This document shows positions 9,025 to 60,390 of a stretch of 64,000 bases of DNA, piece by piece. Position numbers and translations under genes: made by a program. The notes under the pieces are model-generated. The model saw nothing but the letters and a program-made list of their open reading frames with translations, searched no databases and was not told the DNA's origin. Source of the DNA: Streptomyces sp. CG1 (GTDB taxonomy: Bacteria > Actinomycetota > Actinomycetes > Streptomycetales > Streptomycetaceae). Position 1 is the stretch's first letter; every line of letters starts with the position of its first letter. The stretch covers positions 2,542,001 to 2,606,000 of the forward strand of contig NZ_CP163518.1 of the NCBI RefSeq assembly GCF_041080625.1. The letters run 5' to 3'.

Positions 9025-9047
9025 CTGTCAGTGCCGTGCGGCATGAT
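9025..9047 (+). promoter_or_regulatory. RecA-NDp/PafBC-like promoter of the exonuclease gene
   Basis: CTGTCAGTG (9025-9033), exactly 8 bases, then CATGAT (9042-9047). The consensus of PafBC-dependent promoters is TTGTCRGTG-N8-TANNNT. Eight of nine upstream positions match, and the -10 has A2 and T6. Six bases separate the -10 from the GTG at 9054, so the transcript would be leaderless. Similarity is read by eye. Confidence 0.6.
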
Positions 9048-9053
9048 GCGAGC

Positions 9054-9980
9054 GTGACCGGACGACTCATGCTTCTCGACACCGCATCGCTGTACTTCCG
9101 CGCCTATTTCGGCGTGCCGGACTCGGTGAGGGCACCGGACGGCACGCCGGTGAACGCCGTGCGCGGGCTGCTGGACTTCATCGACCGGCTGGTCAAGGAC
9201 CACCGGCCGGAACAGCTGGTGGCCTGTATGGACGCCGACTGGCGGCCGCAGTGGCGGGTGGACCTCATCCCCACCTACAAGGCGCACCGGGTCGCCGAGG
9301 AGCACGAGGGCGCCCCGGACGAGGAGGAGGTGCCCGACACCCTCTCCCCGCAGGTGCCCGTCATCGAGGCCGTCCTCGACGCCCTCGGCATCGCACGCGT
9401 GGGCGTCGAGCCGTACGAGGCGGACGACGTGATCGGCACGTTCACCGCGCACGCCAAGGGCCCGGTGGACATCGTCACCGGCGACCGCGATCTGTACCAG
9501 CTGGTGGACGACGCCCGTGGGATCCGGGTGCTGTATCCGCTGAAGGGCGTCGGCACGCTGCAGCTGACCGACGAGGCGGTGCTGCGCGAGAAGTACGGCG
9601 TGGACGGGCGGGGGTACGCGGATCTGGCGCTGCTGCGCGGCGACCCGAGCGACGGTCTGCCGGGCGTGGCCGGGATCGGCGAGAAGACGGCCGCCAAGCT
9701 GCTCGCGGAGTTCGGTGACCTGGCCGGGATCATGGCGGCGGTGGACGACCCGACGGCGAAGCTCACGCCGTCGCAGCGCAAGCGGCTGGACGAGTCCCGG
9801 CCGTATGTGGCGGTCGCCCCGAAGGTGGTGCGGGTGGCCGACGACGTACCGCTGCCGGACGTGGACACGGCCCTGCCGCACACTCCGCGCGATGCGGCGG
9901 CACTGGAGGAGCTGGCCGGGCGATGGGGGCTCGGCGGCTCCCTGCAGCGGCTGCTGACCACGCTCGCTGCTCGGCCTTGA
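9054..9980 (+). CDS. 5'-3' exonuclease (Pol I N-terminal domain family)
   Basis: A 308-residue stand-alone flap/5'-nuclease like the N-terminal domain of DNA polymerase I. Acidic metal-binding residues are seen in MLLDTASLYFRAY, ACMDADW, EADDVIGTF and TGDRDLYQLV; the H3TH motif is LPGVAGIGEKTAAKLLAEFG. GTG at 9054 is chosen because the protein family starts there and because the promoter element just upstream gives a leaderless start. The gene is divergent from the glycine betaine operon. It probably removes flaps or RNA primers in repair; its promoter suggests induction by DNA damage. Confidence 0.9.
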   Translation: MTGRLMLLDTASLYFRAYFGVPDSVRAPDGTPVNAVRGLLDFIDRLVKDHRPEQLVACMDADWRPQWRVDLIPTYKAHRVAEEHEGAPDEEEVPDTLSPQVPVIEAVLDALGIARVGVEPYEADDVIGTFTAHAKGPVDIVTGDRDLYQLVDDARGIRVLYPLKGVGTLQLTDEAVLREKYGVDGRGYADLALLRGDPSDGLPGVAGIGEKTAAKLLAEFGDLAGIMAAVDDPTAKLTPSQRKRLDESRPYVAVAPKVVRVADDVPLPDVDTALPHTPRDAAALEELAGRWGLGGSLQRLLTTLAARP

Positions 9981-10050
9981 CCGGAATTTTCCGGCAAAAG
10001 GCTTCATCCAGCTCTCAGGAAAACGGTGTTATGCGGAGGCAGATGCTAAC

Positions 10051-10069
10051 TTAGGTAAACCTAACCAAT
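10051..10069 (+). promoter_or_regulatory. Iron box (DmdR1/IdeR-type operator)
   Basis: TTAGGTAAACCTAACCAAT matches the actinobacterial iron-box consensus TTAGGTTAGGCTAACCTAA at 14 of 19 positions by eye. It ends 15 bases before the ATG of the siderophore-interacting protein, so iron-bound DmdR/IdeR repressor would block its transcription. Confidence 0.75.
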
Positions 10070-10084
10070 CTGCAGGAGGTCGTG

Positions 10085-10930
10085 ATGGCAGAGCGTCCGG
10101 GACGAAAGCCGCGCAAGGCTCGCATCGCCCAGGTGGTCCGCACCGAGCGACTGACCCCGCACATGCGGCGCGTGGTGCTCGGCGGCGAGGACCTGGCCGG
10201 CTTCGCGGCGGACACCTGCACCGACCACTACGTGAAACTGCTCTTCGGCCCCGCGGGCGTGACCTACCCGGAGCCCTTCGACCTGGAGCGGATCCGCGCC
10301 GAGTTCCCGCGGGAGCAGTGGCCGGTGACCCGGACGTACACCGTGCGTGCCTGGGATCCCGAACAGCTCGAGCTGACCCTGGACTTCGTCGTCCACGGCG
10401 ACGAGGGCCTGGCCGGCCCGTGGGCCGCCCGGGTGCGGCCGGGTGAGACGGTGCGCTTCATGGGCCCCGGTGGCGCCTACGCCCCCGACCCCGCTGCCGA
10501 CTGGCATCTGCTCGCCGGGGACGAGAGCGCCCTGCCCGCGATCGCGCGGTCCCTGGAGGCGCTGCCGGCCGGCGCCCGCGCCCACGTCTTCGTGGAGGTG
10601 TCCGGCCCCGAGGAGGAGCAGAAGATCGACTCCGATGTGGAGGTCGTCTGGCTGCACCGCGGGGACCGGCCGGTCGGCGAGGCCCTGGTGGCGGCCGTCC
10701 GCGCGCTGGAGTTCCCCGAGGGCCGGGTCTGCGCGTTCGTGCACGGCGAGGCGAGCTGGGTGAAGGAGCTGCGCCGGCTGCTGCGGATCGAGCGCGGCAT
10801 CCCGCGCGAGGACCTGTCGATCTCCGGGTACTGGCGCCTGGGCCACGACGAGGACGGCTGGCAGGCCTCCAAGCGGGACTGGAACGCCCGGATCGAGGCC
10901 GAGCAGGAGGGCGGCGCGGCGGCGGCCTGA
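10085..10930 (+). CDS. Siderophore-interacting protein, FAD-dependent ferric reductase
   Basis: A 281-residue SIP-family flavoprotein that reduces ferric siderophores in the cytoplasm to release iron. FAD-binding residues are in the segment VTRTYTVRAWDPEQLELTLD (residues 81-100), with HGDEGLAGPWAARVRPGE next. The NAD(P)H-binding half has LLAGDESALPAIARSLEAL, and HGEASWVKELRRLL and GYWRLGHDED complete the family pattern. ATG at 10085 has AGGAGGT six bases upstream; an overlapping GTG at 10082 is too close to that site. An iron box precedes it. It stands alone, convergent with a 5'-nucleotidase gene. Confidence 0.93.
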   Translation: MAERPGRKPRKARIAQVVRTERLTPHMRRVVLGGEDLAGFAADTCTDHYVKLLFGPAGVTYPEPFDLERIRAEFPREQWPVTRTYTVRAWDPEQLELTLDFVVHGDEGLAGPWAARVRPGETVRFMGPGGAYAPDPAADWHLLAGDESALPAIARSLEALPAGARAHVFVEVSGPEEEQKIDSDVEVVWLHRGDRPVGEALVAAVRALEFPEGRVCAFVHGEASWVKELRRLLRIERGIPREDLSISGYWRLGHDEDGWQASKRDWNARIEAEQEGGAAAA

Positions 10931-10937
10931 GCGTTTC

Positions 10938-11876
10938 TCAGGGCGCCGTCTCGTTGATCTTCCCGAAGGGAACGTGCACGCTGGGCGTCGTCCGGGACGT
11001 GCTCTCCAGGTGAGTCACCTGGTCGTCGAAGAAAATGTGCGGGTTCAGCACGCCCATGACCGCACCCTTGTCTATGCCGCCGAGGAAGAAGGCGTCGTTG
11101 ACCGCCACGCCCCACTGCTTGAGGCTCGTCACCGCCCGCTCGTGCGCCGGCGCGTTGCGGGCGGTCACGATGGAGACGTGGACCCGTGGTTCGTAGCCGG
11201 GATCGCTCTTGCGCCGCTCCAGCTCACGGCGCTGTATCCGGTTCACCCCGGCGAGGAAGTCGCGCAGTGGCCCGGGGTCGTGCGGGGTGGCCGCATTGCG
11301 CGCCTCGTGCGCGCGGAACTCCTCCAGTCCGGCGCTCTGGTAGACCTGTTCGGCCGCGTCGCCGGCGAGCACCCCGTCGAAGTCGAACGCGATCCGCAGC
11401 TCCTGGTCCTCGGGGTCGTCGGCGTACTGCGAACCCAGCACATGTCCGGCCGGCAGCCCGGCGGCGACGGCCTCCCGGACGTCCATTCCGTTCGCCGACA
11501 GGAACAGGGACATGTTCAGCGCCGGCATGAACTTGTGGGGGGAACGGCCCTGCATGAACACGGCCCGGCTGATGGGCAGTTCATGGGCCTGGATCGACCG
11601 CATGACCCTGAGGCCGGTGTCGGGGTCGTTGCGGGAGAGGATGATGACCTCGACGAGCGGATCGCCCGGCTCGCCGAGGTCGTTCAGCGACAGCAGCCTG
11701 CGGATGAACGCGAACGCGACTCCGGGCCGGAGCGTGTCGTCCACGTGCCGCTCCTGGTAGGCCCGGTAGGCCTCCTCGCCCTGCTCGCGGAAGACGGCGT
11801 CCGACTCCCGCAGATCGAACAGGGCACTGGAGGCGACACCGACGACGAGTCGGTTCGCGAGATCGTAGGCCGGCAT
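10938..11876 (-). CDS. 5'-nucleotidase (NT5C1-like family)
   Basis: A 312-residue protein of the cytosolic 5'-nucleotidase family related to mammalian NT5C1. Family-typical segments are LVVGVASSALFDL at the start, IILSRNDPDTGLRVMRSI, FMQGRSPHKFMPALN, IAFDFDGVLAGDAAE (HAD-like acidic motif), SIVTARNAPAHERA, and the final VNDAFFLGGIDKGAVMGVL with IFFDDQ. It probably dephosphorylates nucleoside monophosphates such as AMP. It is convergent with the siderophore reductase gene, with only 7 bases between the stops, and 11 bases from the ABC permease start behind it. Confidence 0.85.
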   Translation of the reverse strand: MPAYDLANRLVVGVASSALFDLRESDAVFREQGEEAYRAYQERHVDDTLRPGVAFAFIRRLLSLNDLGEPGDPLVEVIILSRNDPDTGLRVMRSIQAHELPISRAVFMQGRSPHKFMPALNMSLFLSANGMDVREAVAAGLPAGHVLGSQYADDPEDQELRIAFDFDGVLAGDAAEQVYQSAGLEEFRAHEARNAATPHDPGPLRDFLAGVNRIQRRELERRKSDPGYEPRVHVSIVTARNAPAHERAVTSLKQWGVAVNDAFFLGGIDKGAVMGVLNPHIFFDDQVTHLESTSRTTPSVHVPFGKINETAP

Positions 11877-11887
11877 GGACTACATCT

Positions 11888-12664
11888 TCACACCGACCGC
11901 TGGTAGGAGCGGAAGGTGCGGATCGACAGCCACACCGCCGCGATCGCCAGGGCGAGCAGCGCACCGCCGCGGCTGAGGACGCCGCCCCAGTCGGGATGCT
12001 CGGACAGCGCCGAACGGCCGGTCACCATCGCCCAGTTGAGCGGGTTGAAGTCGGCGATGTGCCGCATCCAGCCGGGCATCTGCGCGGGCGCCATGAAGGC
12101 GCTGGAGAGGAAGGTCAGCGGCAGCAGCAGGAAGGTGTTGATGCCGATGATCGACTCCCGTTCGCGTACCAGCATGCCGAGCGCGTTGGACAGGGCACCG
12201 AAGACCGTCCCGAGCAGCACGGCGGCCAGCACGAGGATCGCGATGCCGCCGATACCGCCCGGGTAGTCCGCGCCGCCGAGCAGGCCGAGCAGCACGATGA
12301 CCACCGACTGGCAGGCGGTGACCAGGCCGTTGTTGACCACGTTGCCGTTCATGAGCGCGGCCCGGCTGACCGGGGTGGTCAGGAACCGGTCGAGGGTGCC
12401 GCGCTGGATCTCCTCCAATGTGCCCATGCCGGCCCACATGTTGGAGCCGAGGGCGCTCATCACGACCACGCCCGGCACCAGGTAGTCCAGGTAGGAGGTG
12501 GTGCCGAAGCCGCCCAGCCCGACGACCTTCTTGAACAGGTTGCCGAACAGGAACAGCCAGATCACCGGCTGGATCAGGGTGATGACCGCGTAGGCGGGCT
12601 GCCGGGCGAACACCCGCAGCTGACGCTGCGCCATGTACCAGGTCTGGGTGAGGGCACCGCTCAT
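11888..12664 (-). CDS. ABC-2 type permease (DrrB-like exporter subunit)
   Basis: A 258-residue membrane protein with six predicted segments and the ABC-2 pattern (ALTQTWYMAQRQLRVFARQP near the start, YLDYLVPGVVVMSALG, ERESIIGINTFLLLPLTFLS, MPGWMRHIADFNPLNW). It is the membrane half of an exporter of the daunorubicin-resistance type. Its ATG overlaps the stop of the ATPase gene by four bases (ATGA), so the two are translationally coupled. Likely drug, lipid or metabolite efflux; the substrate cannot be told. Confidence 0.9.
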   Translation of the reverse strand: MSGALTQTWYMAQRQLRVFARQPAYAVITLIQPVIWLFLFGNLFKKVVGLGGFGTTSYLDYLVPGVVVMSALGSNMWAGMGTLEEIQRGTLDRFLTTPVSRAALMNGNVVNNGLVTACQSVVIVLLGLLGGADYPGGIGGIAILVLAAVLLGTVFGALSNALGMLVRERESIIGINTFLLLPLTFLSSAFMAPAQMPGWMRHIADFNPLNWAMVTGRSALSEHPDWGGVLSRGGALLALAIAAVWLSIRTFRSYQRSV

Positions 12665-13662
12665 CGCGCACCTCCCACGAGCACGGTCTCGGCCTCGGCC
12701 TCCGCGTAGCGGCGTCCGGCATGGCGGAGGTAGACGTCGTCCAGCGAGGGCCGGGCGACGGTGGCCGAGGCGACGGTGACCCCGGCCCGGTCCAGCGCGG
12801 CGAGCAGCGCGGGCACCGCGGCCGCCCCGTCGTCGGCGCGGACGCTGATCCGGCGCCCCTCACACAGCGCCTCGTGCACTCCGGGCAGTGCGGTCAGGGC
12901 GCCGGTGAGCAGCGTGCGGCCGGCCTCGCCGACCGGCTCGCGCAGTTCCATGTGCACGGCGTCGCCGCGCAGTTCGCCCTTGAGGGCGTCCGGGGTGCCC
13001 TCGACCACGATCCGGCCGCGGTCGACGATCGCGATGCGCTCGGCGAGCCGGTCCGCCTCTTCCAGATAGTGCGTGGTGAGCAGGATGGTCAGACCCTCCT
13101 CGCCGGCCAGCCGGCCGATCTCCTCCCACATCGCGGTGCGTGCCTCCGGGTCCAGCCCGGTGGTCGGCTCGTCCAGGAACAGCACCTCGGGCCGGTGCAG
13201 GAGCCCGAGGGCTACGTCGAGCCGGCGCCGCATGCCGCCCGAGTAGCCCTTGACCTGCCGGCGGGCGGCGTCGGCGAGGGTGAATCGCTCCAGCAGCTCG
13301 TCCACCCGGCGGTTCAGCGCGGTGCCGCCCAGGCCGTAGAGGCGGCCCTGGAGTTGCAGGTTCTCCCGGCCCGTGGCGACCGGGTCGGCGCCGGACTGCT
13401 GGGCGACCACGCCGATCGCGCGGCGCACCCGGTCGGGGTGGCGCAGCACGTCGTGCCCGGCGACGGAGGCGGTGCCGGAGTCCGGGCGGGCCAGGGTGGT
13501 CAGGATCTTGACGGTGGTGGACTTGCCGGCGCCGTTGGGGCCGAGGAGTCCGAAGACGGTACCCGGTGCCACGGTGATGTCCATGCCGGTCAGGGCGGTG
13601 ACGTCACCGGGATAGGTCTTGACGAGCTGGCGCGCCTCCACTGCGGGCGCACGGGTATTCAT
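12661..13662 (-). CDS. ABC transporter ATP-binding protein (DrrA-like)
   Basis: A 333-residue ATPase of the DrrA/CcmA group. Walker A is GLLGPNGAGKSTT, the signature is YSGGMRRRLDVALGL, Walker B is VLFLDEPTTGLDP, with LLTTHYLEEAD after it. The C-terminal extension (AVPALLAALDRAGVTVASAT, RPSLDDVYLRHAGRR) is typical of DrrA proteins. ATG at 13662 follows AGGAG. It forms an operon with the permease. The padR gene lies upstream in the same direction with a terminator-like hairpin and paired dyads between them. Confidence 0.93.
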   Translation of the reverse strand: MNTRAPAVEARQLVKTYPGDVTALTGMDITVAPGTVFGLLGPNGAGKSTTVKILTTLARPDSGTASVAGHDVLRHPDRVRRAIGVVAQQSGADPVATGRENLQLQGRLYGLGGTALNRRVDELLERFTLADAARRQVKGYSGGMRRRLDVALGLLHRPEVLFLDEPTTGLDPEARTAMWEEIGRLAGEEGLTILLTTHYLEEADRLAERIAIVDRGRIVVEGTPDALKGELRGDAVHMELREPVGEAGRTLLTGALTALPGVHEALCEGRRISVRADDGAAAVPALLAALDRAGVTVASATVARPSLDDVYLRHAGRRYAEAEAETVLVGGAR

Positions 13663-13680
13663 GACGACTGCTCTCCTGAA

Positions 13681-13735
13681 TGAGCGGATGACGGAAGATC
13701 CGCTGCGTGAGCGGATCGGGGAAGATCCGCGTGAA
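13681..13735. repeat. Two tandem 27-bp dyad repeats before the ABC exporter operon
   Basis: TGAGCGGAT...GAAGATCCGC occurs at 13681-13703 and again at 13708-13730, a 27-base period. Each copy carries the inverted repeat GCGGAT...ATCCGC. They lie 19 bases upstream of the ATPase start codon and look like tandem operator sites. Confidence 0.7.
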
Positions 13736-13811
13736 GAGCGCCGGGCTATCCTGGGTGTGCCGCACCTCGATCGCCCGGAGCCGCCGCACGGCGGATCCGT
13801 TTCGGGGTTCG

Positions 13812-13851
13812 CGACCCCGGCGGAGCTGCTGCAACAGCCCTGCCGGGGTCG
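13812..13851 (-). terminator. Hairpin terminator after padR
   Basis: CGACCCCGGC (13812-13821) pairs perfectly with GCCGGGGTCG (13842-13851). It follows the padR stop by 17 bases and separates padR from the exporter promoter. Confidence 0.6.
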
Positions 13852-13867
13852 GCTTTCTCTTCCGGGT

Positions 13868-14488: not shown

Positions 14489-14522
14489 GACGATCACCTC
14501 GCTCCCGAATATCCGTAGCCGA

Positions 14523-14570
14523 ACATATCGCGTTTTGCGCGCGAGGGCAACGCACACGATGTATCGCGTA
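14523..14570. promoter_or_regulatory. Direct repeats upstream of padR (candidate operator)
   Basis: ACATATCGCGT (14523-14533) and ATGTATCGCGT (14559-14569) share ATCGCGT with a common upstream T, 36 bases apart, in an AT-richer patch just upstream of padR. They may be PadR sites. The dyads before the ABC operon are different in sequence. Confidence 0.35.
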
Positions 14571-14607
14571 TGACGGGGCTACGCAAGGGGCGGACGCAAA
14601 GGGTTGG

Positions 14608-15146: not shown

Positions 15147-15177
15147 CGCAGCCGTTTCCCCCTCGTACCCTTGACCG

Positions 15178-21283: not shown

Positions 21284-24091
21284 TCATCCCACGGACGAGT
21301 AGGCGACCACACCCCGCAGCAACTGATCAACGGCCTTGCGCGCGGCCTTGGCCACGGTCGAGCCCTCGACGGGCGCCGCGGCGGAAATCTGCCCCAGCAC
21401 GTCGATGACCTGCTTGCACCACCGCACGAAGTCCCCCGCCGGCATGTCCGCCTCGCGCAGCACCTCGTCGAGCCCCTTGCCCGAGGCCCACATGTACGCG
21501 GCCCACGCGAAGCCGAGATCCGGCTCACGCTGCCCGACGCCCTCGGTCTGGTTGATCCGGAAGTCCTCCTCCAGACCGTCGAGCCGGCCCCAGATCCGGA
21601 CCATCTCACCGAGCGCGGCCTTCGCCTTGCCCGAGGGCAGCTTGGGTGCCATCGCATCGTCGCTGACCCGCGCCTCATACACCAACGCCGAGACACACGC
21701 GGCGAGTTCGGCCGGGGCGAGCCCCTCCCAGACTCGCTCGCGCAGGCATTCGCTGGCGAGCAGGTCGAGTTCGCCGTACAGCCGGGCGAGTCGCTTGCCG
21801 TGTTCGGTGACCTCGTCGCCGCGCAGATAGTCCAGTTCGGTCAGCAGCGCCACGATCCGGTCGAAGGTCCGCGCGATGGTGTTCGTACGGCCCTCGATAC
21901 GGCGCTCCAGCTGCGAGGTGTCGCGCAGCAGCCGGTGGTAGCGCTCGGCCCAACGGGCGTGGTCCTCACGGTCGTTGCAGCCGTGGCAGGGGTGCGCGCG
22001 GAGGGCGGTGCGCAGCCGGGCGATCTCGCGGTCGTCGGCGGCCTGCGAGCGCTTCTTGCGGGCCCGCTCCGGCGGGATGTGCCCGGCCTTGCTGCGCAGC
22101 GCGGAGGCCAGGTCCCGGCGCGACTGCGGGGAGCGCGGGTTGAAGGACTTGGGGATCCGCATCCGGTCCAGCGGCTCGACCGGCACCGGGAAGTCCATCG
22201 ACGCCAGCCGCTTGACCTGCCGCTCGGCGGTGAGCACCAGCGGGCGCGGGCCGTCGTGATGGTCGAAGCCGCGGTGGCCGTTGGAGCGGCCGGCGGGCAG
22301 GCCGGGGTCCAGCACGAGGGCCAGACCGGCGTACTTGCCCGTGGGTACGTGGATGACGTCGCCCGGCTTGAGCTTCTCCAGGGCCACCGCGGCCTCGGCG
22401 CGCCGCTGGTTGACGCCCTGCCGGGCCAGCTCGGTCTCGCGGTCCTTCAGCTCGCGGCGCAGCCGCGCGTACTCCTCGAAGTCGCCGAGGTGGCAGATCA
22501 TGGAGGCCTTGTAGCCGGCCAGGCCCTCTTCGTTGCGCTGCACCTGGCGGGAGATCCCGACGACCGACTTGTCGGCCTGGAACTGCGCGAAGGAGGTCTC
22601 CAGCAGCTCGCGCGAGCGGTGCCGGCCGAACTGCTCGACCAGGTTGACCGCCATGTTGTACGACGGCTTGAAGCTGGAGCGCAGCGGGTACGTACGCGTG
22701 CCCGCGAGACCGGCCAGGTGCTCGGGGCTCATCCCGCGCTGCCACAGCACGACCGCGTGGCCCTCGATGTCGATGCCACGCCGGCCCGCACGGCCGGTGA
22801 GCTGGGTGTACTCGCCGGGGGTGATGTCGGCGTGCTGTTCGCCGTTCCACTTGACGAGCTTTTCCAGCACCACGGAGCGGGCGGGCATGTTGATGCCGAG
22901 CGCGAGGGTCTCGGTCGCGAACACGGCCTTGACCAGGCCGCGTACGAACAGTTCCTCGACGACCTCCTTGAAGGTCGGCAGCATGCCCGCGTGATGGGCG
23001 GCGATACCGCGCTCCAGGCCCTCCAGCCATTCGTAGTACCCGAGGACGTGCAGGTCCTCGGACGGGATGGAGGCGGTGCGCTCCTCGACCAGGGCACGGA
23101 CCTGCTCCCGCGCCTCCTCGTCGTTGAGTCTGAGGCCCGCGTACAGGCACTGCTGGACGGCGGCCTCGCAGGCGGCGCGGCTGAAGATGAAGGTGATGGC
23201 GGGGAGCAGGCCCTCGGAGTCGAGGCGCTCGATGACCTCGGGGCGGCCCGGCGTCCACACGCGCGAGCGCTGTCTGCGCTCCCGCTCCCGGTCGGCCTCG
23301 CGCATCGCCCGGCCGCGCCTGCGGTCCTGGTACGACGGTCTGGTGGCCTCCATGCGGGCCAGGCGGGCCAGGTCGGGGTTGACGGCCTTCTTGTGGCCCT
23401 CGCCCTCCTCGAACAGGTCGTACATCCGGCGTCCGGCGAGCACGTGCTGGAACAGCGGCACGGGCCGGTGCTCGGAGACGATCACCTCGGTGTCGCCACG
23501 GACGGTGTCCAGCCAGTCACCGAACTCCTCGGCGTTGGACACGGTCGCCGACAGTGACACCAGGGTCACCGACTCGGGCAGGTGGATGATCACCTCTTCC
23601 CAGACGGCGCCACGGAAGCGGTCGGAGAGGTAGTGCACCTCGTCCATGACCACGTAGCCGAGGCCGAGGAGGGTCTGGGAGCCGGCGTAGAGCATGTTCC
23701 GCAGGACCTCGGTGGTCATGACGACCACCGGGGCTTCGGAGTTGACGCTGTTGTCGCCGGTGAGGAGGCCGACCTTGCCGGTGCCGTAGCGGCGGCACAG
23801 GTCGGCGTACTTCTGGTTCGACAGCGCCTTGATGGGTGTCGTGTAGAAACACTTCTTGCCCTGCTGCAGGGCGAGGTGGACGGCGAACTCGCCCACGATC
23901 GTCTTGCCCGAGCCGGTGGGGGCGGCCACCAGCACGCCCTTCCCCGTCTCGAGCGCCTCACAGGCCTCGATCTGGAAGGGGTCGAGGCCGAAGTCGTACA
24001 TCTCGCGGAAGGACGCGAGCGCGGTGGCCTGCTCGGCTGCCCGCCTGCGGGCTGCCGCGTACCGCTCGGCCGGTGAGAGGTCCTCTGTCAT
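21284..24091 (-). CDS. helY: DEVH-box superfamily 2 helicase, HelY (Ski2/Mtr4-like)
   Basis: A 935-residue helicase. Walker A is APTGSGKT, motif II is VMDEVHYLSD (DEVH), motif III is SLSATVSN, motif V/VI is TETLALGINMPA and QLTGRAGRRGID. A long C-terminal region with rRNA-processing-arch-like and DSHCT features follows (LPSGKAKAALGEMVRIWGRL). Such proteins unwind RNA or DNA; the actinobacterial cellular role is not settled. ATG at 24091 starts the conserved MTEDLSPAERY; a much longer open frame upstream reaches into tatC and is not expected. A PafBC-like promoter element lies 10 bases before the start. Downstream is a strong terminator. Confidence 0.92.
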   Translation of the reverse strand: MTEDLSPAERYAAARRRAAEQATALASFREMYDFGLDPFQIEACEALETGKGVLVAAPTGSGKTIVGEFAVHLALQQGKKCFYTTPIKALSNQKYADLCRRYGTGKVGLLTGDNSVNSEAPVVVMTTEVLRNMLYAGSQTLLGLGYVVMDEVHYLSDRFRGAVWEEVIIHLPESVTLVSLSATVSNAEEFGDWLDTVRGDTEVIVSEHRPVPLFQHVLAGRRMYDLFEEGEGHKKAVNPDLARLARMEATRPSYQDRRRGRAMREADRERERRQRSRVWTPGRPEVIERLDSEGLLPAITFIFSRAACEAAVQQCLYAGLRLNDEEAREQVRALVEERTASIPSEDLHVLGYYEWLEGLERGIAAHHAGMLPTFKEVVEELFVRGLVKAVFATETLALGINMPARSVVLEKLVKWNGEQHADITPGEYTQLTGRAGRRGIDIEGHAVVLWQRGMSPEHLAGLAGTRTYPLRSSFKPSYNMAVNLVEQFGRHRSRELLETSFAQFQADKSVVGISRQVQRNEEGLAGYKASMICHLGDFEEYARLRRELKDRETELARQGVNQRRAEAAVALEKLKPGDVIHVPTGKYAGLALVLDPGLPAGRSNGHRGFDHHDGPRPLVLTAERQVKRLASMDFPVPVEPLDRMRIPKSFNPRSPQSRRDLASALRSKAGHIPPERARKKRSQAADDREIARLRTALRAHPCHGCNDREDHARWAERYHRLLRDTSQLERRIEGRTNTIARTFDRIVALLTELDYLRGDEVTEHGKRLARLYGELDLLASECLRERVWEGLAPAELAACVSALVYEARVSDDAMAPKLPSGKAKAALGEMVRIWGRLDGLEEDFRINQTEGVGQREPDLGFAWAAYMWASGKGLDEVLREADMPAGDFVRWCKQVIDVLGQISAAAPVEGSTVAKAARKAVDQLLRGVVAYSSVG

Positions 24092-24101: not shown

Positions 24102-24124
24102 AGCGTACCGGGCCCCATTGACAA
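24102..24124 (-). promoter_or_regulatory. RecA-NDp/PafBC-like promoter of helY
   Basis: On the minus strand TTGTCAATG (24124-24116), 8 bases, then TACGCT (24107-24102). Eight of nine upstream positions match TTGTCRGTG, and the -10 fits TANNNT. The start codon follows 10 bases later. Confidence 0.55.
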
Positions 24125-24200
24125 CAGGACGATCATTATCCGAACGTGGACTGATCGACAAAGACGGCTGATCCACGGCACCGCTGACCGGCGAAGGCGA

Positions 24201-25603: not shown

Positions 25604-25779
25604 CCATCGTGCTGGGAGCGATCGTATCGCCCGGGGATGAACGTAAAACAATCCCCGTGCGTACTCCCGCTCTGTCTGCGGACCGCGCCTCGTTTTTCCG
25701 GGCCGCGACCAGCAGCGTACCTGGCCGGACCGACACGGTGACAGGGCGAAGTGACCCAAAGCGCATGGGCTGAGGCAAT

Positions 25780-26372: not shown

Positions 26373-27377
26373 TCACTGCCCGGAGTTCGCCGACTGCACC
26401 GTGTCATACGCCTCCAGGGCCTCGCGGGCCGCCCGGCGGGCGCTGTCGGCCAGGTCGGACGGGGAGACGATCCGGCCGTCCCGGCCGAGCCGCAGCGCCA
26501 GCCGGCGCAGCGAGGCCGGGTCGGGGGTGCGCAGAGTGATACGCAGCCCGCCGTCGGGAAGCTCATCCGCGCTGTCGTGCGGGTAGTACTCGGCCACCCA
26601 GCGGCCGCCCGGGCCGACCTCGATGACGACCTCCGGGTCCTCGGCGGCCGGCTGCACCAGCGCCTCGGAGAGGTCACGCAGCTCCATCTCCGGGGGCGCG
26701 GACGGCTCGTCCAGGATTCTGATCTCGGCGACCCGGTCGAGCCGGAAGGTGCGCCGGGCCTCGGAGCGGCGGCACCAGGCCTCGACATAGGTGTGTCCGA
26801 CGCTGACCAGGCGGATGGGGTCGATCTCGCGCTCGGTGACCTCGTCGCGGGCCGGCGAGTAGTAGCGGATCCACAGCCGGCGGCGCTCGGAGATTGCCCG
26901 GTCGACGTCGGCGAAGACCCCGCCCTCGGACTCGAAAGTCACCGACAGCCGGGCGCTGGCGCCCGCGGCCTCACCGGCGGCGGCCTCCACTTTGGCGGTG
27001 GCCCGCAGCAGCGCCTGCCGGTCGCCCTCGCGCAGACCCGGCAGGGTCGAGACCGCGCGGGCGGCCACCAGCAGGGCGGTCGCCTCGTCGGCGGCGAGCC
27101 GCAGCGGCTCGGCGGCCTCCTCGCCGAGCGCGGCCGGATTGTGCCACCAGATGCGCTCGCCGTCGGTGTCGATGTCCAGCAGATCGCCGCCGCGGAAGCT
27201 GGTGCCGCACATGGGCAGCAGATCGAGGTCGGCCACCAGCTCGTCCTCGGTGATACCGAAGGCACGCGCCACATCCGCGATCCGCGCGCCGGGCCGCTCC
27301 CTGAGATATGTCACCAGGGAGAGCATCCGCCGGGTCTGGTCGATGGCGTTCACGGTCCTGACCGGTTTGCCTGCCAC
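26373..27377 (-). CDS. pafC: WYL-domain transcription activator PafC
   Basis: A 334-residue protein: winged helix at the start (RRMLSLVTYLRERPGARIAD, VARAFGITEDELVADLDLLP), WYL domain in the middle (ERRRLWIRYYSPARDEVTER, HTYVEAWCRRSEARRTFRLD) and a C-terminal extension. With PafB it forms the PafBC activator, which in mycobacteria turns on most DNA-damage genes independently of LexA. GTG at 27377 lies 15 bases after pafB, so the two are cotranscribed. The classical WYL Trp-Tyr-Leu is not intact, as often in PafC. Confidence 0.9.
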   Translation of the reverse strand: MAGKPVRTVNAIDQTRRMLSLVTYLRERPGARIADVARAFGITEDELVADLDLLPMCGTSFRGGDLLDIDTDGERIWWHNPAALGEEAAEPLRLAADEATALLVAARAVSTLPGLREGDRQALLRATAKVEAAAGEAAGASARLSVTFESEGGVFADVDRAISERRRLWIRYYSPARDEVTEREIDPIRLVSVGHTYVEAWCRRSEARRTFRLDRVAEIRILDEPSAPPEMELRDLSEALVQPAAEDPEVVIEVGPGGRWVAEYYPHDSADELPDGGLRITLRTPDPASLRRLALRLGRDGRIVSPSDLADSARRAAREALEAYDTVQSANSGQ

Positions 27378-27392: not shown

Positions 27393-28346
27393 TCAGCCCT
27401 TGGCCACGGCCCGCAGCCGGTCCACCACGTCCGCGCGCAGCTCGGCCGGCTCCAGGACCACCACGTCCGGCCCGAACTCCACCAGCCAGGCGTCCAGGCC
27501 GTGCCCGTACGGAATCTCCAACTCGTCCCAGCCGTCGCCTAGTTCCCGCACCCTGGTGGCCTTCGCCCGAAGGGGGTAACCGGCGCCGGAACGCAGCCGG
27601 ATCAGGGCCGTACCGTCGGCGATCTCGCCCGCCCAGCTCGCGACGGTCTCCCGCACGGTGACGACATCGGGCACCGGAGCGGTGAAGCCCGTACCGCGCG
27701 AGCGCACGCGGCCGGTGATCCGGGAGAGCCGGAAGACACGCTCGGCAGCCCGGTCGCGGTCGAAACCGGCCAGGTACCAGTGCCCGCGCCAGCACTCGAG
27801 GGCCCACGGCTCCACATGCCGGGGCTCGGGGCGGGCGGCGGAGGCCTTGCGGTAGTCGAAGACGACCGGGCGGCGGTCGCGGCAGGCCAGCATCAGCGGC
27901 TCGAAGGCGGCCTCGTGCACCGGGATCCGGGGTTCCAGGGCGCCGTGTGCCTCGTACGGGTCGACGTCCTCGGGCAGCCCCGCGGCGCGCAGCTTCTGCA
28001 GGGCGCCACTGGCCGCGCCGGCCAGGCGGGCCTGCTGCCAGACCTTCGCGGCGAGGCCGAGCGCCGCGGCCTCCTCGGCGTCCAGGGTGATGGGCGGCAG
28101 GCGGTTGCTGTCACGGCGGGCCAGATAGCCGACCTCGCCGTCCAGGTTCTCGACCGTCTCGATCACCAGGCCCAGCTCGCGCAGATCGTCCTTGTCCCGC
28201 TCGAACATCCGGTTGAAGGAGTCGTCACTGCCCGCTTCGAGGTAGGCCTCGATGGACGCACGCAGCTCCCGCTTGCTGAGTGGCCGCCGTGTGCCGAGCA
28301 GACACAGCGCGAGGTTCATCAGCCGCTCTGCCTTGGCAATGGCCAT
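27393..28346 (-). CDS. pafB: WYL-domain transcription activator PafB
   Basis: A 317-residue protein: winged helix at residues about 5-65 (ERLMNLALCLLGTRRPLSKR, FNRMFERDKDDLRELGLVIE), then the WYL domain (RRPVVFDYRKASAARPEPRH, CWRGHWYLAGFDRDRAAERV), and a C-terminal domain (WDELEIPYGHGLDAWLVEFG). PafB partners PafC in DNA-damage transcription. ATG at 28346 starts the family sequence MAIAKAERLMNL; a longer frame upstream runs into a terminator and is rejected. Four genes in this window have promoters resembling PafBC targets. Confidence 0.92.
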   Translation of the reverse strand: MAIAKAERLMNLALCLLGTRRPLSKRELRASIEAYLEAGSDDSFNRMFERDKDDLRELGLVIETVENLDGEVGYLARRDSNRLPPITLDAEEAAALGLAAKVWQQARLAGAASGALQKLRAAGLPEDVDPYEAHGALEPRIPVHEAAFEPLMLACRDRRPVVFDYRKASAARPEPRHVEPWALECWRGHWYLAGFDRDRAAERVFRLSRITGRVRSRGTGFTAPVPDVVTVRETVASWAGEIADGTALIRLRSGAGYPLRAKATRVRELGDGWDELEIPYGHGLDAWLVEFGPDVVVLEPAELRADVVDRLRAVAKG

Positions 28347-44729: not shown

Positions 44730-44752
44730 CTGTCAGTGGCGGGCCGTAAGGT
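44730..44752 (+). promoter_or_regulatory. RecA-NDp/PafBC-like promoter of the RecB-like nuclease gene
   Basis: CTGTCAGTG (44730-44738), 8 bases, then TAAGGT (44747-44752). Eight of nine upstream positions fit TTGTCRGTG and the -10 fits TANNNT fully. ATG at 44761 is 9 bases from the last -10 base, so the transcript would start at or just before it. Confidence 0.68.
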
Positions 44753-44760
44753 CTGTGGGC

Positions 44761-45852
44761 ATGGACAGCAGTATCGAGGACGCGGGAGCCCCGGCGGGCA
44801 GCGCCGAGCAGACGGGACCGGCCGAGGCGCCGCAGCAGACGCCCACGACGGCTGCGCCGGCGACGGCCGCGGAGCCGGTGCCCAGCCCCTCGATACCTGC
44901 GGTGGCGGCCGAGGAAATCCCAGCGACTGAGAAGGCGCTCCCCGGGACCGAGACGCCTCCCGCTGCCGCGGCACCCGCCGTGCCCGGTGCCGAGCGGGCC
45001 GCCGTCCCGCCCACCTCGCTCTCTCCTTCCCGGGCCGGCGATTTCATGCAGTGCCCGTTGCTGTACCGGTTCAGAGTGATCGACCGGCTGCCGGAGAAGC
45101 CGAGCGCGGTGGCGACCCGGGGCACGCTGGTGCACGCGGTGCTGGAGCGGCTGTTCGACGCGCCCGCCGCGGAGCGGACCGCGCCGCGGGCCAAGGCGCT
45201 GGTCCCGGGACAGTGGGACCGGCTGCGGGAGAGCCGGCCGGAGGTCACGGAGCTGTTCGCGGACGACCCGGACGGGGAGCGGCTGGCGGGGTGGCTGGCG
45301 GAGGCCGAGCGGCTCGTGGAGCGCTGGTTCACGCTGGAGGATCCGACGCGGCTGGAGCCGGCCGAGCGGGAGCTGTTCGTGGAGACCGAGCTGGAGTCGG
45401 GGCTGCGGCTGCGCGGGATCATCGACCGGGTGGACGTGGCGCCGACCGGTGAGGTGCGGATCGTCGACTACAAGACGGGGAAGGCGCCGAGGCCGGAGTA
45501 CTCCGAGGGCGCGCTGTTCCAGATGAAGTTCTACGCCCTGGTCGTGTGGCGGTTGAAGCGGGTGGTCCCGCGCCGGCTCCAGCTGGTGTATCTGGGCAGC
45601 GGGGATGTGCTGACGTACGACCCGGTGCTCGCCGATCTCGAGCGGGTCGAGCGCAAGCTGCACGCGCTGTGGGAGGCGATCGAGCGGGCCACGCAGACAG
45701 GTGAGTGGCGGCCCCGGCCGACCAAGCTGTGCGGCTGGTGCGACCATCAGGCGCACTGCCCGGAGTTCGGCGGCACTCCCCCGGCGTATCCGCTGCCGGT
45801 GAGGGCGGCCGAGTCCGGGCGCGTGGAGCAGGGCAGAATGGGCCCGGACTAG
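44761..45852 (+). CDS. RecB-family PD-(D/E)XK nuclease with an Fe-S cluster motif
   Basis: A 363-residue nuclease. The first 90 residues are Ala/Pro-rich and look disordered. The domain starts at LSPSRAGDFMQCPLLYRFRV, with the first cluster Cys, and has GTLVHAVLERLF, then the active site LRLRGIIDRVDVAPTGEVRI and VDYKTGK. Near the end CGWCDHQAHC supplies three more Cys, as in AddB/Cas4-type 4Fe-4S nucleases. It is stand-alone, without helicase subunits nearby. ATG at 44761 is next to a PafBC-like promoter. A response regulator follows after 14 bases. Role in recombination repair is inferred. Confidence 0.87.
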   Translation: MDSSIEDAGAPAGSAEQTGPAEAPQQTPTTAAPATAAEPVPSPSIPAVAAEEIPATEKALPGTETPPAAAAPAVPGAERAAVPPTSLSPSRAGDFMQCPLLYRFRVIDRLPEKPSAVATRGTLVHAVLERLFDAPAAERTAPRAKALVPGQWDRLRESRPEVTELFADDPDGERLAGWLAEAERLVERWFTLEDPTRLEPAERELFVETELESGLRLRGIIDRVDVAPTGEVRIVDYKTGKAPRPEYSEGALFQMKFYALVVWRLKRVVPRRLQLVYLGSGDVLTYDPVLADLERVERKLHALWEAIERATQTGEWRPRPTKLCGWCDHQAHCPEFGGTPPAYPLPVRAAESGRVEQGRMGPD

Positions 45853-51036: not shown

Positions 51037-51062
51037 CCGGGCGCACCTCCTTGAGGGACGAT

Positions 51063-55862: not shown

Positions 55863-55909
55863 GCGGGCGCGGGACGGCTCTCAGCACTGCGCGCTCACCC
55901 CAGGATGCG

Positions 55910-55926
55910 CCGGGGAATCTCCCCGG
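55910..55926 (+). terminator. Short hairpin after gylR
   Basis: CCGGGGA-ATC-TCCCCGG is a perfect 7-bp stem with a three-base loop, 48 bases after the gylR stop. Confidence 0.5.
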
Positions 55927-56106
55927 GGGACGACCGGGATGCCAGGCGGCGTTCCGGGTCTCGCCCTACCCTGAAGTGGACATATCCGGCTAAACCCTGC
56001 GTCTGGGCGCGAAGAGTGATAACCGGCAGCGATCAATAACGATCCTGTTTTCAATAACAGAACCCTTGACGCATGCGTAACGCCGAAGCAAGACTCCCGT
56101 CCATCG

Positions 56107-56122
56107 GTCGGCATTGTCGAAC
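56107..56122. promoter_or_regulatory. GylR operator, copy upstream of glpF
   Basis: GTCGGCATTGTCGAAC. Its reverse complement, GTTCGACAATGCCGAC, matches the gylR-side copy at 14 of 16 positions. Confidence 0.65.
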
Positions 56123-56251
56123 ACCTACCGGCAATACGCGCTAGAGTGTGACAACGCCAAGGACCGGCATCGCTCTCACCCCCGAGGGCGCCAGAACCTC
56201 CGGCGGGACCGGGGTTCGGCTATCCCTGGACGAAGGACAAAGGAGTCGCGG

Positions 56252-57046
56252 GTGTCCAGCTCCGACATCTTCATCGGCGAGACCATCGGTACCGCCATAC
56301 TCATCCTGCTCGGCGGCGGCGTGTGCGCGGCCGTCACGCTGAAGGCCTCCAAGGCCCGTAACGCCGGTTGGCTCGCCATCGCCTTCGGGTGGGGCTTCGC
56401 CGTCATGACGGCCGTATACATCTCCGGACCGCTCTCCGGTGCGCACCTCAACCCGGCCGTCACCGTCGCCCTGGCCATCAAGAGCGGCGACTGGACCAAC
56501 GTTCCGGTCTACTTCGCCGGCCAGCTGCTCGGCGCGATGATCGGCGCGGCCCTGGTGTGGGTCGCCTACTACGGCCAGTTCCACGCCCACCTCACCGACA
56601 AGGAGATCGTCGGCGGTCCGGGCGCGCAGGCCACCACGGCCAAGGCGGTCGAGGCCCAGGAGAAGGGCGCCGGCCCGGTCCTCGGCATCTTCTCCACCGG
56701 TCCGGAGATCCGTAACGCGGCGCAGAACCTCGCCACGGAGATCATCGGCACGGTCGTGCTGATCCTCGCGGTCCTCACGCAGGGCCTGAACGACAAGGGC
56801 AACGGCCTCGGCATCCTCGGCGGTCTGATCACCGCGTTCGTGGTGGTGTCGATCGGTCTCTCCCTCGGCGGCCCGACGGGCTACGCGATCAACCCGGCCC
56901 GTGACCTGGGCCCGCGTATCGTGCACGCCCTGCTGCCGCTGCCCAACAAGGGCGGTTCCGACTGGGCTTACGCCTGGATCCCGATCGTCGGTCCGCTGGT
57001 CGGCGGCGCGATCGCTGCAGGCATCTACAACGTCGCATTCGCTTAA
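56252..57046 (+). CDS. glpF: Glycerol uptake facilitator (aquaglyceroporin)
   Basis: A 264-residue MIP-family channel with six membrane helices and two half-helices carrying NPA boxes ([19 protein letters not shown] and [18 protein letters not shown]). The Asp after the second NPA marks glycerol-conducting members rather than water channels. It passes glycerol into the cell for GlpK. GTG at 56252 has AAAGGAG upstream. First gene of the glpF-glpK-glpD operon. Confidence 0.95.
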
Positions 57047-57106
57047 GACGTATAAGCACGCGCCGTACGTAAAGCCCCCTCACCACGGATCTTTCAGGAG
57101 CACACA

Positions 57107-58645
57107 GTGACCGACGCCCACACCGCAGGCCCGTTCATCGCCGCGATCGACCAGGGCACGACCTCCTCGCGCTGCATCGTCTTCGACAAGGACGGCCGGA
57201 TCGTCTCCGTCGACCAGAAGGAGCACGAGCAGATCTTCCCGAAGCCGGGCTGGGTCGAGCACAACGCCAACGAGATCTGGACCAACGTCCAGGAGGTCGT
57301 CGCCGGAGCCATCCAGAAGGCCGGCATCACCCGTGACGACATCAAGGCCATCGGCATCACCAACCAGCGCGAGACCACCGTGCTGTGGGACAAGAACACC
57401 GGTGAGCCCGTCTACAACGCCCTCGTCTGGCAGGACACCCGCACCGACAGCCTCTGCAGGGAGCTGGGCCGCAACGTCGGCCAGGACCGCTTCCGCCGCG
57501 AGACCGGTCTCCCGCTGGCCTCGTACTTCTCCGGCCCCAAGGCCCGCTGGCTGCTCGACAACGTCGAGGGCCTCAAGGAGCGCGCCGAGGCCGGCGACAT
57601 CCTCTTCGGCACCATGGACACCTGGGTCATCTGGAACCTGACCGGTGGTGTCGACGGCGGCAAGCACGTCACCGACGTGACCAACGCCTCCCGCACCCTT
57701 CTCATGAACCTGCACACCATGCAGTGGGACGAGAAGATCGCCGAGTCGATCGGTGTGCCGCTGCAGATCCTGCCCGAGATCCGCTCCTCCGCCGAGGTCT
57801 ACGGCGAGGTCACCGGCGGCAAGCTCGGCGACCTGCTCGGCGGCATCCCGGTCGCCTCCGCGCTCGGTGACCAGCAGGCGGCCCTGTTCGGCCAGTGCTG
57901 CTTCGCCGAGGGCGAGACCAAGTCCACCTACGGCACCGGCACCTTCATGGTGATGAACACCGGCGACAAGATCATCAACTCTTACGCCGGTCTGCTGACC
58001 ACGGTCGGTTACAAGATCGGCGAGCAGCCGACGGTGTACGCCCTGGAGGGCTCGATCGCCGTCACCGGCTCGCTGGTGCAGTGGATGCGCGACCAGATGG
58101 GCCTCATCTCCACCGCCGCCGAGATCGAGACGCTCGCGCTCTCGGTCGAGGACAACGGCGGTGCCTACTTCGTGCCGGCCTTCTCCGGCCTGTTCGCCCC
58201 GCACTGGCGTTCCGACGCCCGCGGTGTGATCGCCGGTCTGACCCGGTACGTCACCAAGGCGCACCTCGCGCGCGCCGTCCTGGAGGCCACCGCCTGGCAG
58301 ACCCGGGAGATCGCCGACGCCATGGTGAAGGACTCCGGCGACGAGCTGGTGGCCCTCAAGGTCGACGGTGGCATGACCGCCAACAACCTGCTGATGCAGA
58401 CGCTCTCCGACGTCCTGGACGCGCCAGTGGTGCGCCCGATGGTCGCCGAGACCACCTGCCTCGGCGCCGCCTACGCCGCCGGCCTCGCCGTCGGCTTCTG
58501 GTCCAGCACCGACGAACTGCGCGCCAACTGGCGCCGGGCCGCCGAGTGGACCCCCCGCATGGACGCGGAGACCCGCGACCGTGAGTACAAGAACTGGCTC
58601 AAGGCCGTCGACCGGACCATGGGCTGGATCGAGGACGAGAGCTGA
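57107..58645 (+). CDS. glpK: Glycerol kinase
   Basis: A 512-residue FGGY kinase that phosphorylates glycerol to glycerol-3-phosphate. The phosphate loop is [17 protein letters not shown], and [31 protein letters not shown] and [17 protein letters not shown] with [10 protein letters not shown] follow. GTG at 57107 follows CAGGAGCACACA. It lies 60 bases after glpF. Confidence 0.97.
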
Positions 58646-58687
58646 GCTGCCCCACAGACCAGCTCTGACGAGGAGTAAGTACCCGAC

Positions 58688-60304
58688 ATGACCAGTCAGT
58701 CCACCCTGCAGTCCGTGCCTGCCCTCGGGACGCACCCGGCCTCGGGCTCCAACCCGAGCCGCGCCGAGACCCGGGAGCAGCTCTCCAAGGCGTCGTACGA
58801 CCTTCTGGTGATCGGCGGCGGCATCCTGGGCATCTCCACCGCCTGGCACGCCGCGCAGTCCGGCCTGAGGGTGGCTCTGGTCGACGCCGGCGACTTCGCC
58901 GGCGCCACCTCCTCCGCCTCCTCCAAGCTGCTCCACGGCGGTCTGCGCTACCTGCAGACCGGTGCGGTGAAGCTGGTGGCGGAGAACCACTTCGAGCGCC
59001 GTGCGGTCTCCCGTCAGGTGGCCCCCCACCTGGCGAACCCGCTCACCTTCTACCTCCCCGTGTACAAGGGCGGGCCGCACGGCGCGGCGAAGCTCGGCGC
59101 GGGCGTCTTCGCCTACTCCGCGCTCTCCGCGTTCGGCGACGGCGTCGGCCACCTGCTCTCCCCCGCCCGGGCGGCGCAGGACGTGCCCGAGCTGCGCACC
59201 GAGAACCTCAAGGCCGTGGCCGTGTACGGCGACGACCAGATGAACGACGCGCGCATGGCGCTGATGACGGTCCGTGCGGCCGTCGAGTCGGGCGCCGTCG
59301 TCCTCAACCACGCCGAGGTCACCGGGCTGCGGTTCACCAAGGGCCGGGTCACCGGCGCCGAGCTCAAGGACCGGCTCTCCGGTGCGGAGTTCGGGGTCAA
59401 CGCCCGCCTGGTGCTGAACGCGACCGGCCCCTGGGTGGACCACCTGCGCAAGCTGGAGGACCCGAACGCGGCGCCGTCCATCCGCCTGTCGAAGGGCGCG
59501 CACCTGGTCCTGAAGCGGACCTCCCCGTGGAAGGCCGCGCTGGCGACCCCCATCGACAAGTACCGGATCACCTTCGCCCTCCCCTGGGAGGACATGCTGC
59601 TGCTCGGCACGACCGACGAGGAGTACGAGGGCGACCCGGCGGACGTCGACGTCAACGAGAAGGACATAGCCCAGATCCTGGACGAGGCCGCGTTCTCCGT
59701 GCGCGACCAGCAGCTCAAGCGTGACCTCATCACCTACGCGTTCGCCGGTCTGCGGGTGCTGCCGGGCGGCCCCGGCGACACCGCCAAGGCCAAGCGCGAG
59801 ACCGTGGTGACCGAGGGCAAGGGCGGCATGCTGTCCGTCGCGGGCGGCAAGTGGACGACGTTCCGGCACATCGGCCGTACGGTGATGCAGAAGCTGGAGG
59901 CGCTGCCGGGTCACCCTCTCGGCGATGACTTCGAACCGATCTCCTCGCTGCCGAAGAAGCTGCCGCTGCCCGGTGTCGCCAACCCGCGCGCGGTCGCCCA
60001 CCGCCTGCTGGTGGACCACCCGGCCCCGGGTCCGCGCATGGCCGCCGACACCGCCAAGCACCTGGCGACGCACTACGGTTCGCTGGCCTTCGACATCGCC
60101 CGCCTGGCGAACGAGAACCCGGATCTGGCCGAGCGCGTCCACCCCGACGCCCCGGAGATCTGGGCGCAGGTCGTCTGGGCCCGCGACCACGAGTGGGCCG
60201 AGACGCAGGACGACGTGCTGCGCCGCCGTACGACGCTGACCATCCGGGGCCTGGCCACGGACGAGGTCCGCGCCAAGGTGCAGGACCTGCTCGACAAGAA
60301 GTAA
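58688..60304 (+). CDS. glpD: Aerobic glycerol-3-phosphate dehydrogenase
   Basis: A 538-residue FAD enzyme oxidising glycerol-3-phosphate to dihydroxyacetone phosphate at the membrane. FAD-binding is shown by YDLLVIGGGILGISTAWHAA and SSKLLHGGLRYLQTG; ALPWEDMLLLGTTDEEYEG and GGKWTTFRHIGRTVM complete the family pattern. The first 35 residues are an extra tail. ATG at 58688 follows GAGGAG. It ends the operon. Confidence 0.96.
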   Translation: MTSQSTLQSVPALGTHPASGSNPSRAETREQLSKASYDLLVIGGGILGISTAWHAAQSGLRVALVDAGDFAGATSSASSKLLHGGLRYLQTGAVKLVAENHFERRAVSRQVAPHLANPLTFYLPVYKGGPHGAAKLGAGVFAYSALSAFGDGVGHLLSPARAAQDVPELRTENLKAVAVYGDDQMNDARMALMTVRAAVESGAVVLNHAEVTGLRFTKGRVTGAELKDRLSGAEFGVNARLVLNATGPWVDHLRKLEDPNAAPSIRLSKGAHLVLKRTSPWKAALATPIDKYRITFALPWEDMLLLGTTDEEYEGDPADVDVNEKDIAQILDEAAFSVRDQQLKRDLITYAFAGLRVLPGGPGDTAKAKRETVVTEGKGGMLSVAGGKWTTFRHIGRTVMQKLEALPGHPLGDDFEPISSLPKKLPLPGVANPRAVAHRLLVDHPAPGPRMAADTAKHLATHYGSLAFDIARLANENPDLAERVHPDAPEIWAQVVWARDHEWAETQDDVLRRRTTLTIRGLATDEVRAKVQDLLDKK

Positions 60305-60317
60305 CCGGTCACGGCAC

Positions 60318-60349
60318 AGGGGCTGTTCCACGGCGGTGGGGCGGCCCCT
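60318..60349 (+). terminator. Weak hairpin after glpD
   Basis: AGGGGCTG (60318-60325) can pair with CGGCCCCT (60342-60349) with one G-U pair and a 16-base loop. A plausible but weak terminator. Confidence 0.35.
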
Positions 60350-60367
60350 TCCGCCTGCTCGGGGGCA

Positions 60368-60390
60368 TTGTCAGTGCCGGGTGCTTCCAT
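60368..60390 (+). promoter_or_regulatory. RecA-NDp/PafBC-like promoter of the SMI1-like gene
   Basis: TTGTCAGTG (60368-60376), a perfect match to TTGTCRGTG, exactly 8 bases, then TTCCAT (60385-60390), which has T1 and T6 but not A2 of TANNNT. Six bases then lead to ATG at 60397, so the transcript would be leaderless. Confidence 0.65.

Follow-up and report, generated by a model that had tools for sequence, protein, structure and literature searches.

The DNA analysed here, referred to as the window, is a stretch of 64,000 nucleotides from Streptomyces sp. CG1 (contig NZ_CP163518.1, positions 2,542,001 to 2,606,000). It carries genes for a 5'-3' exonuclease, a RecB-like nuclease, the helicase HelY and an SMI1-like protein, each preceded by a candidate promoter of the RecA-NDp type, and the genes of the regulators PafB and PafC (Table 1). 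The RecA-NDp consensus, TTGTCRGTG-N8-TANNNT, is said to originate with Gamulin in 2004, and the RecA-NDp promoter of S. rimosus recA was reportedly described by Ahel in 2002.

Table 1 Candidate promoters and genes discussed in the text, in window coordinates.
Feature	Position	Strand	Sequence or domains	Remarks
Exonuclease promoter, predicted PafBC-type	9025..9047	+	CTGTCAGTG (9025-9033), N8, CATGAT (9042-9047)
5'-3' exonuclease gene	9054..9980	+	PF02739, PF01367	GTG at +6 from -10; probably leaderless
helY helicase gene	21284..24091	-	DEAD, DSHCT	ATG at +10 from -10
helY promoter, predicted PafBC-type	24102..24124	-	TTGTCAATG (24124-24116), N8, TACGCT (24107-24102)
pafC	26373..27377	-	HTH_PafC (PF19187, 94.5 bits), WYL, WCX	Proposed contact to sigma region 4
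pafB	27393..28346	-	WYL, WCX	Likely start 28346; proposed to read the -26 box
RecB-like nuclease promoter, predicted PafBC-type	44730..44752	+	CTGTCAGTG (44730-44738), N8, TAAGGT (44747-44752)
RecB-like PD-(D/E)XK nuclease gene	44761..45852	+	PF12705	ATG at +8 from -10
SMI1-like promoter, weak candidate	60368..60390	+	TTGTCAGTG (60368-60376), N8, TTCCAT (60385-60390)
SMI1/KNR4-like (SUKH) gene	60397..60942	+	PF09346, sub-threshold	ATG at +6 from -10

The four motif strings and their 8-base spacers, as given in a preliminary description of this DNA, proved exact to the base on rereading, as did the distances of 6, 8, 6 and 10 bases from -10 to start codon. Its names for the exonuclease, the RecB-like nuclease and the helicase are backed by Pfam, and the pafB and pafC genes that it placed in the window were recovered with the domains expected of them; the product of the gene at 60397 scored 21.5 bits for SMI1/KNR4 vs a cut-off of 25.4. 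The -26 box, TGTCRGTG, is perfect at 9025, 44730 and 60368 and has one mismatch at 24124, where TGTCAATG is read, while the -10 element TANNNT is present at 44730 and 24124 and departs to CATGAT at 9025 and TTCCAT at 60368. Among the four sites, the full core of 8 + 6 bases (TGTCRGTG + TANNNT) is therefore matched at 44730 only. Scanning the window for TTGTCRGTG-N8-TANNNT with up to 2 mismatches returned 9 matches vs 1.86 expected, a number reached in 0 of 100 shuffles; the five matches beyond the four each had 2 mismatches. An ordinary -35/-10 promoter was ruled out by the spacing, since TTGTCA, at 11 bases from -10, does not sit as a usual -35 would.

Abundance, spacing and targets of the motif

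Genome-wide, TGTCRGTG-N8-TANNNT was found at 62 sites in 11.1 Mb vs 2 for a reversed-pattern control, far above the chance frequency that would have spoken against the preliminary description. When gaps of 3-13 bases were allowed, 67 matches were obtained vs 20 for the control, and the gap was exactly 8 in 62 of the 67; the five others were excluded before the counts that follow. The 3 kb surroundings of all 67 were read and start codons were called mechanically. Coding-like frames begin with ATG or GTG 6-10 bases past -10 at 31 of the 62 sites vs 5.9% of random window positions (binomial p ~5e-22), with a peak at +7 (18 sites). As +7 is about where transcription would be expected to start, mRNAs with their start codon there should be leaderless, and the best reading of the start-codon positions is that about half of the sites would give such mRNAs. 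The recA gene was counted among these through a GTG at +7, and its real start may be an ATG at +43. Bases outside the searched core were also skewed, position -2 being G or A in 92% and position +8 G or C in 95%.

With up to 1 mismatch at N8, 254 sites were found vs 77 for the control, leaving 192 sites with exactly one mismatch (254-62) vs 75 (77-2), so that a lone 1-mismatch site is ~61% signal. If such a site also has a start at +6 to +10, the odds that it is a true site can be roughly estimated at ~13:1, assuming such a start in half of the true sites and at 5.9% of random positions.

The motif is in excess across the genus as well. The perfect N8 motif occurs at least 13 times in each of 200 sampled Streptomyces genomes (200/200), the control at most 3 times, and the summed ratio of motif to control over 96 of these genomes was 4504:51. 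With gaps of 3-13 bases, the ratio was 48:1 in S. narbonensis, 44:8 in S. zaomyceticus, 54:7 in S. gardneri and 44:1 in S. filamentosus. Some of these four species are presumably close to S. venezuelae. A chance origin of the motif was excluded by the reversed-pattern control, the fixed spacing, the start-codon placement and the genus-wide counts. The sites are very likely the promoters of a PafBC-type DNA-damage regulon in Streptomyces, with the activator and its induction read across from mycobacteria.

A downstream frame is present at 58 of the 62 sites (the sites without one are L002, L030, L064 and L067); 56 frames were scanned for protein families, the RecB-like gene was assigned through its window copy, and L001, with a frame of 76 codons, was left out. 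Repair or replication genes stand at 19 of the 62, a raw count with no genome-wide background rate beside it. They comprise UDG (L009), RarA/MgsA (L011), RuvC (L012), the RecB-like nuclease (L014), a RecD2-type HHH protein (L015), UvrC (L018), UvrA (L019), UvrB (L021), O6-methylguanine methyltransferase (L022), the DNA polymerase III alpha subunit (L024), AlkZ (L032), DnaX (L034), S6 with SSB downstream (L035), endonuclease III (L037), a RadA-like Zn-ribbon/AAA/Lon-C protein (L040), UvrD (L044 and L049), RecA (L055) and a DinG-like helicase (L057). The other 43 are not obviously connected with repair and include MoaA-like, MiaB-like, FolB and TerD proteins, an ECF sigma factor, SUKH-4 and WGR proteins, transporters (MFS among them) and sites with no family or no frame. 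An NCBIfam search of 10 family-less targets left 8 without a match. Five targets with no match in Pfam or NCBIfam (L027, L066, L063, L010 and L013) are candidate unknown damage genes; in L027 and L066 the start codon is at +7.

That the names of most of the 62 targets do not mark them as repair genes would suit a constitutive or growth-linked promoter type to which damage is irrelevant. This is very improbable in view of the 19 repair and replication targets and of two reports on induction. In S. venezuelae treated with mitomycin C, recA and ruvC, both of which have perfect sites here, rose 9.07-fold and 2.78-fold, an effect attributed there to LexA (Table 1 of PMC9380542), and SCO6735, which has a promoter of the same type, was induced 5-fold by ultraviolet light in S. 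coelicolor (PMC5087735). Like S. rimosus recA, SCO6735 matches the present sites in promoter type and genus; those reports concern single genes, whereas the perfect sites counted here number 62 in one genome and at least 13 in each of 200.

A further reading is that LexA controls these repair genes and that the TGTC box is incidental. The S. venezuelae LexA/SOS regulon overlaps with the present targets in recA, ruvC and uvrA, the first two being LexA targets and the third having a LexA chromatin immunoprecipitation peak (PMC9380542), and an identical SOS box, CGAACATCCATTC, precedes the TGTC box of recA here (L055) by 113 bases. An SOS-like box with up to 2 mismatches lies within 150 bases of 14 of the 62 sites, a raw count with no chance control. 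LexA, however, is a repressor with an SOS box, and it explains neither the fixed 8-base spacing nor the link to PafC described below. A search for SOS boxes from -200 to +150 of the four window sites gave best matches with 3-4 mismatches of 10, no site having a box at up to 2 mismatches, and LexA was rejected as the factor behind these four. For the repair genes as a group, control by LexA with an incidental box is likewise hardly credible.

Conservation of the four window sites

The RecB-like site is strong. Among 20 divergent regions, 5 had no RecB-like match and a sixth aligned from residue 200 only; in the 15 divergent loci with the gene, the site was perfect in 11, degraded in 3 and unread in 1. 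The start lies at +7 or +8 in the 14 loci that were read, despite a greatly varying protein N-terminus. A longer form of this promoter occurs without mismatch in 38 named genome records, of which 37 carry a Streptomyces title.

The exonuclease site is good inside its clade. Of 29 near relatives, 26 have a TGTC box at N8, which is a perfect TGTCRGTG in 23; among 20 divergent genomes the box is perfect in 6, one base off in 2, two off in 2 and absent in 10. Two of the upstream regions, L098 and L100, have no box and show another -10-like sequence (TAACAT and TAAAAT) before the start. Upstream of the exonuclease start, TGTCRGTG is also repeated: L070 has two copies 22 bases apart, and L085 has five within 185 bases.

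For helY, gene and upstream DNA were found in 10 of 20 regions from nearer relatives and in 19 of 20 divergent ones. The perfect TGTCRGTG occurs in 9 of the 10 nearer loci, and TGTCAATG therefore looks private to this genome. In the 19 divergent loci a perfect box is found in none, TGTC is kept in 18, TGTCRGAG is read in 9 and the -10 is TAGNCT in all 19. A stretch like GATAATGATCG or GATAAAGATCG stands immediately 5' of the helY box (window 24130-24140, minus strand) in most of 29 relatives.

The SMI1-like site is weak, and the gene itself is accessory, being present in 22 of 101 genus genomes. TGTC at N8 was found in 6 of its 7 closest homologues (L119-L123 and L125, not L124), with a perfect TGTCRGTG in 3; in 16 more distant loci a perfect box was the best match in none. 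The SMI1-like gene is joined by a second gene of the SUKH family elsewhere in the genome, a SUKH-4 gene (L029), which has a perfect site with GTG at +8.

Taken alone, the sites of the SMI1-like gene and helY might be chance or decayed matches. Each has one core mismatch, the -10 of the SMI1-like site reads TTCCAT, background accounts for about 39% of 1-mismatch sites (75/192), and the perfect box is missing from the divergent helY loci and from the best matches of the distant SMI1-like loci. This explanation is rather doubtful for the pair, given their start codons at +6 and +10, the perfect boxes of the nearer helY loci and the TGTC at N8 in the closest SMI1-like homologues. Within the window, PafBC-type control is very probable for the RecB-like nuclease and the exonuclease, probable for helY and possible for the SMI1-like gene. 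The PafBC-type regulon proposed in the preliminary description is partly supported: the proposal gains from the motif excess, the spacing, the repair targets and the pooled co-occurrence with PafC, and loses from the inequality of the sites and the poor SMI1-like -10.

Apart from these four, a near match, GTGTCGGTC-N8-TACGCT, lies at window positions 25714-25736 (minus strand), ~175 bases upstream of a tatA-like start as judged by eye; it is not leaderless.

PafBC as the candidate activator

The closest solved relatives of the window PafB and PafC are the M. smegmatis PafBC complexes (7p5x, 9fnd). PafB aligns from residue 1 with its counterpart in 7p5x (E 1.9e-57), and PafC with that of the same entry at E 2.1e-52. 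In Arthrobacter (Aau) PafBC, the recognition helix has the outward arginines R44 and R48 (PMC6789036); these align to R46 and R50 of the window PafB, counted by hand. Residues R181, Y196, R204 and R208 of M. smegmatis PafB, which were tested for binding of single-stranded DNA (ssDNA), are all kept in the window PafB by reading of the alignment, and a complex of PafBC with RNA polymerase on a promoter with ssDNA was demonstrated for M. smegmatis (both PMC11804915).

In a survey of 296 Actinomycetota genomes, the motif and its control were counted, and PafC was sought both by protein search and through its helix-turn-helix (HTH) family PF19187; these counts come from related genomes that are not independent, kinship being ignored. 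Pooled ratios of motif to control were 576:11 for 12 Streptomyces and 341:10 for 23 further genomes of the class. In other classes, the ratio was 164:35 with a strong PafC HTH match (E <1e-15; 117 genomes), 33:29 with a weak one (84) and 53:55 with none (60). The same picture was obtained outside the class when genomes were split by protein search, with 142:24 in the 88 whose PafC-like protein reached E ≤1e-30, 25:23 in 48 and 83:72 in the 125 having none. Pooled enrichment across Actinomycetota follows the presence of a clear PafC HTH only. Genome by genome, a clear excess by a 3-fold rule was seen in 12/12 of the genus, 21/23 of the class and, for the three groups of the protein search, 18/88, 2/48 and 2/125. 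Proteins with weak PF19187 matches were rejected as box-reading activators, no pooled enrichment being found in genomes that carry them.

A WYL or PafC-like protein other than PafBC could instead activate the same promoters. PF19187 is matched eight times in this genome, which leaves room for a PafC-like paralogue as the activator, and SiwR of M. smegmatis, another WYL activator acting under genotoxic stress, also relies on a -26 region; it differs in its GGA triplet and in having one operon described (PMC10693628). Such an activator in place of PafBC is improbable, as the motif matches the mycobacterial PafBC element, the PafB recognition-helix arginines are kept, and the pooled enrichment tracks strong PafC HTH matches and is gone with weak ones.

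Several observations weigh against a PafBC-type regulon. One base of the core is mismatched at three of the four window sites; among the 20 divergent genomes, 12 have a badly decayed exonuclease box or none, and two show a quite different -10; the eight PF19187 matches have just been mentioned; and most PafC-bearing genomes outside the class lack a clear individual excess (18 of 88 pass). In addition, an initial motif search in S. venezuelae suggested that the motif of M. smegmatis PafBC has not been conserved there (PMC9380542). That statement looks mistaken for the genus, the counts presented here being for the genus at large and not for S. venezuelae itself.

By analogy with the mycobacterial work, damage would generate ssDNA, which would bind the WYL domains of PafBC. 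PafBC would in turn bind the promoter and let the housekeeping RNA polymerase (sigma factor HrdB) use promoters whose -10 stands exactly 8 bases after a -26 TGTCRGTG that takes the place of the usual -35, a mode known as sigma adaptation. Transcription would start ~7 bases past -10, which at about half of the targets would be the start codon, giving a leaderless mRNA. PafBC binding, activation by ssDNA, induction by damage and the transcription starts are all carried over here from mycobacteria.

The mycobacterial PafBC/RecA-NDp regulon (M. smegmatis, M. tuberculosis) shares with the present sites the -26 box, the 8-base spacer, the -10, the repair targets, a RecB-like nuclease among them, and the position of pafB and pafC near pafA. 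The Streptomyces case differs in being counted genome-wide, in being half leaderless by position and in being predicted from sequence. The mycobacterial rv2119 is presumably the counterpart of the window RecB-like gene. Overexpression of this recB-like exonuclease was reported in M. tuberculosis that lacked recA and had been treated with mitomycin (PMC8151990). Sigma adaptation with HrdB is also described for AfsR/SARP of S. coelicolor, which is compared there to M. smegmatis PafBC and differs in having no WYL domain, another box and antibiotic genes as targets (PMC10936776).

The RecA-NDp promoter type reaches other Actinobacteria (PMC8223512). Literature searches, confined to titles and abstracts with many journals not covered, returned no experimental PafBC study in Streptomyces; the PafBC treated in PMC11077062 is that of M. 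smegmatis. The kind of promoter is known; the literature so searched gave no account of the size of the set in Streptomyces, of its spacing rule, of its leaderless positions or of its extent across the genus. The existence in Streptomyces of a damage response independent of RecA and LexA is left undecided in PMC9380542, and the present data suggest that these bacteria have a second damage response of the mycobacterial type. A motif abundant throughout the genus and present on many classic repair genes here provides a ready target list for a mutant experiment, and PafBC would be a second possible cause of repair-gene induction now credited to LexA.

DISARM loci

One perfect site (L036, 1501-1522; G000:C1:5457084) lies upstream of a drmA-drmB-drmC operon of the anti-phage system DISARM; a frame of 51 codons, which begins at +8, separates the site from drmA. 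A drmA of this kind is present in 30 of 295 genus genomes, this genome included, and the 30 loci were examined on one strand over the first 1.7 kb of each. In the group whose DrmA is 42-44% identical (L247-L252), 5 of 6 loci (L247, L248, L249, L251 and L252) have the box immediately before drmA, whose start codon falls at +6 to +8; four of these boxes are perfect and one is TGTCAGCG. The DrmA proteins of the five loci are 58-88% identical to each other, and drmABC was confirmed for two of the five operons. Counter to a link with DISARM, the box is at the start in 0 of 7 loci whose DrmA is 80% identical, and the remaining 16 loci gave a single weak case (L242).

Whether the PafBC-type response also arms phage defence, through a leaderless drmA promoter in one DISARM clade, is evenly balanced. 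If it does, ssDNA from infection or damage would switch on DISARM in that clade, and PafBC-type promoters would tie the damage response to an anti-phage system. No literature linking DISARM to PafBC, or to a DNA damage promoter in Streptomyces, was found among the titles and abstracts listed, and according to a 2023 report (PMC10693628) no WYL factor had by then been described as regulating phage defence in Actinobacteria. Within one of the DISARM loci (L220, 16873-18003), a gene matches capP and, weakly, capH, which form an ssDNA-responsive peptidase/repressor module.

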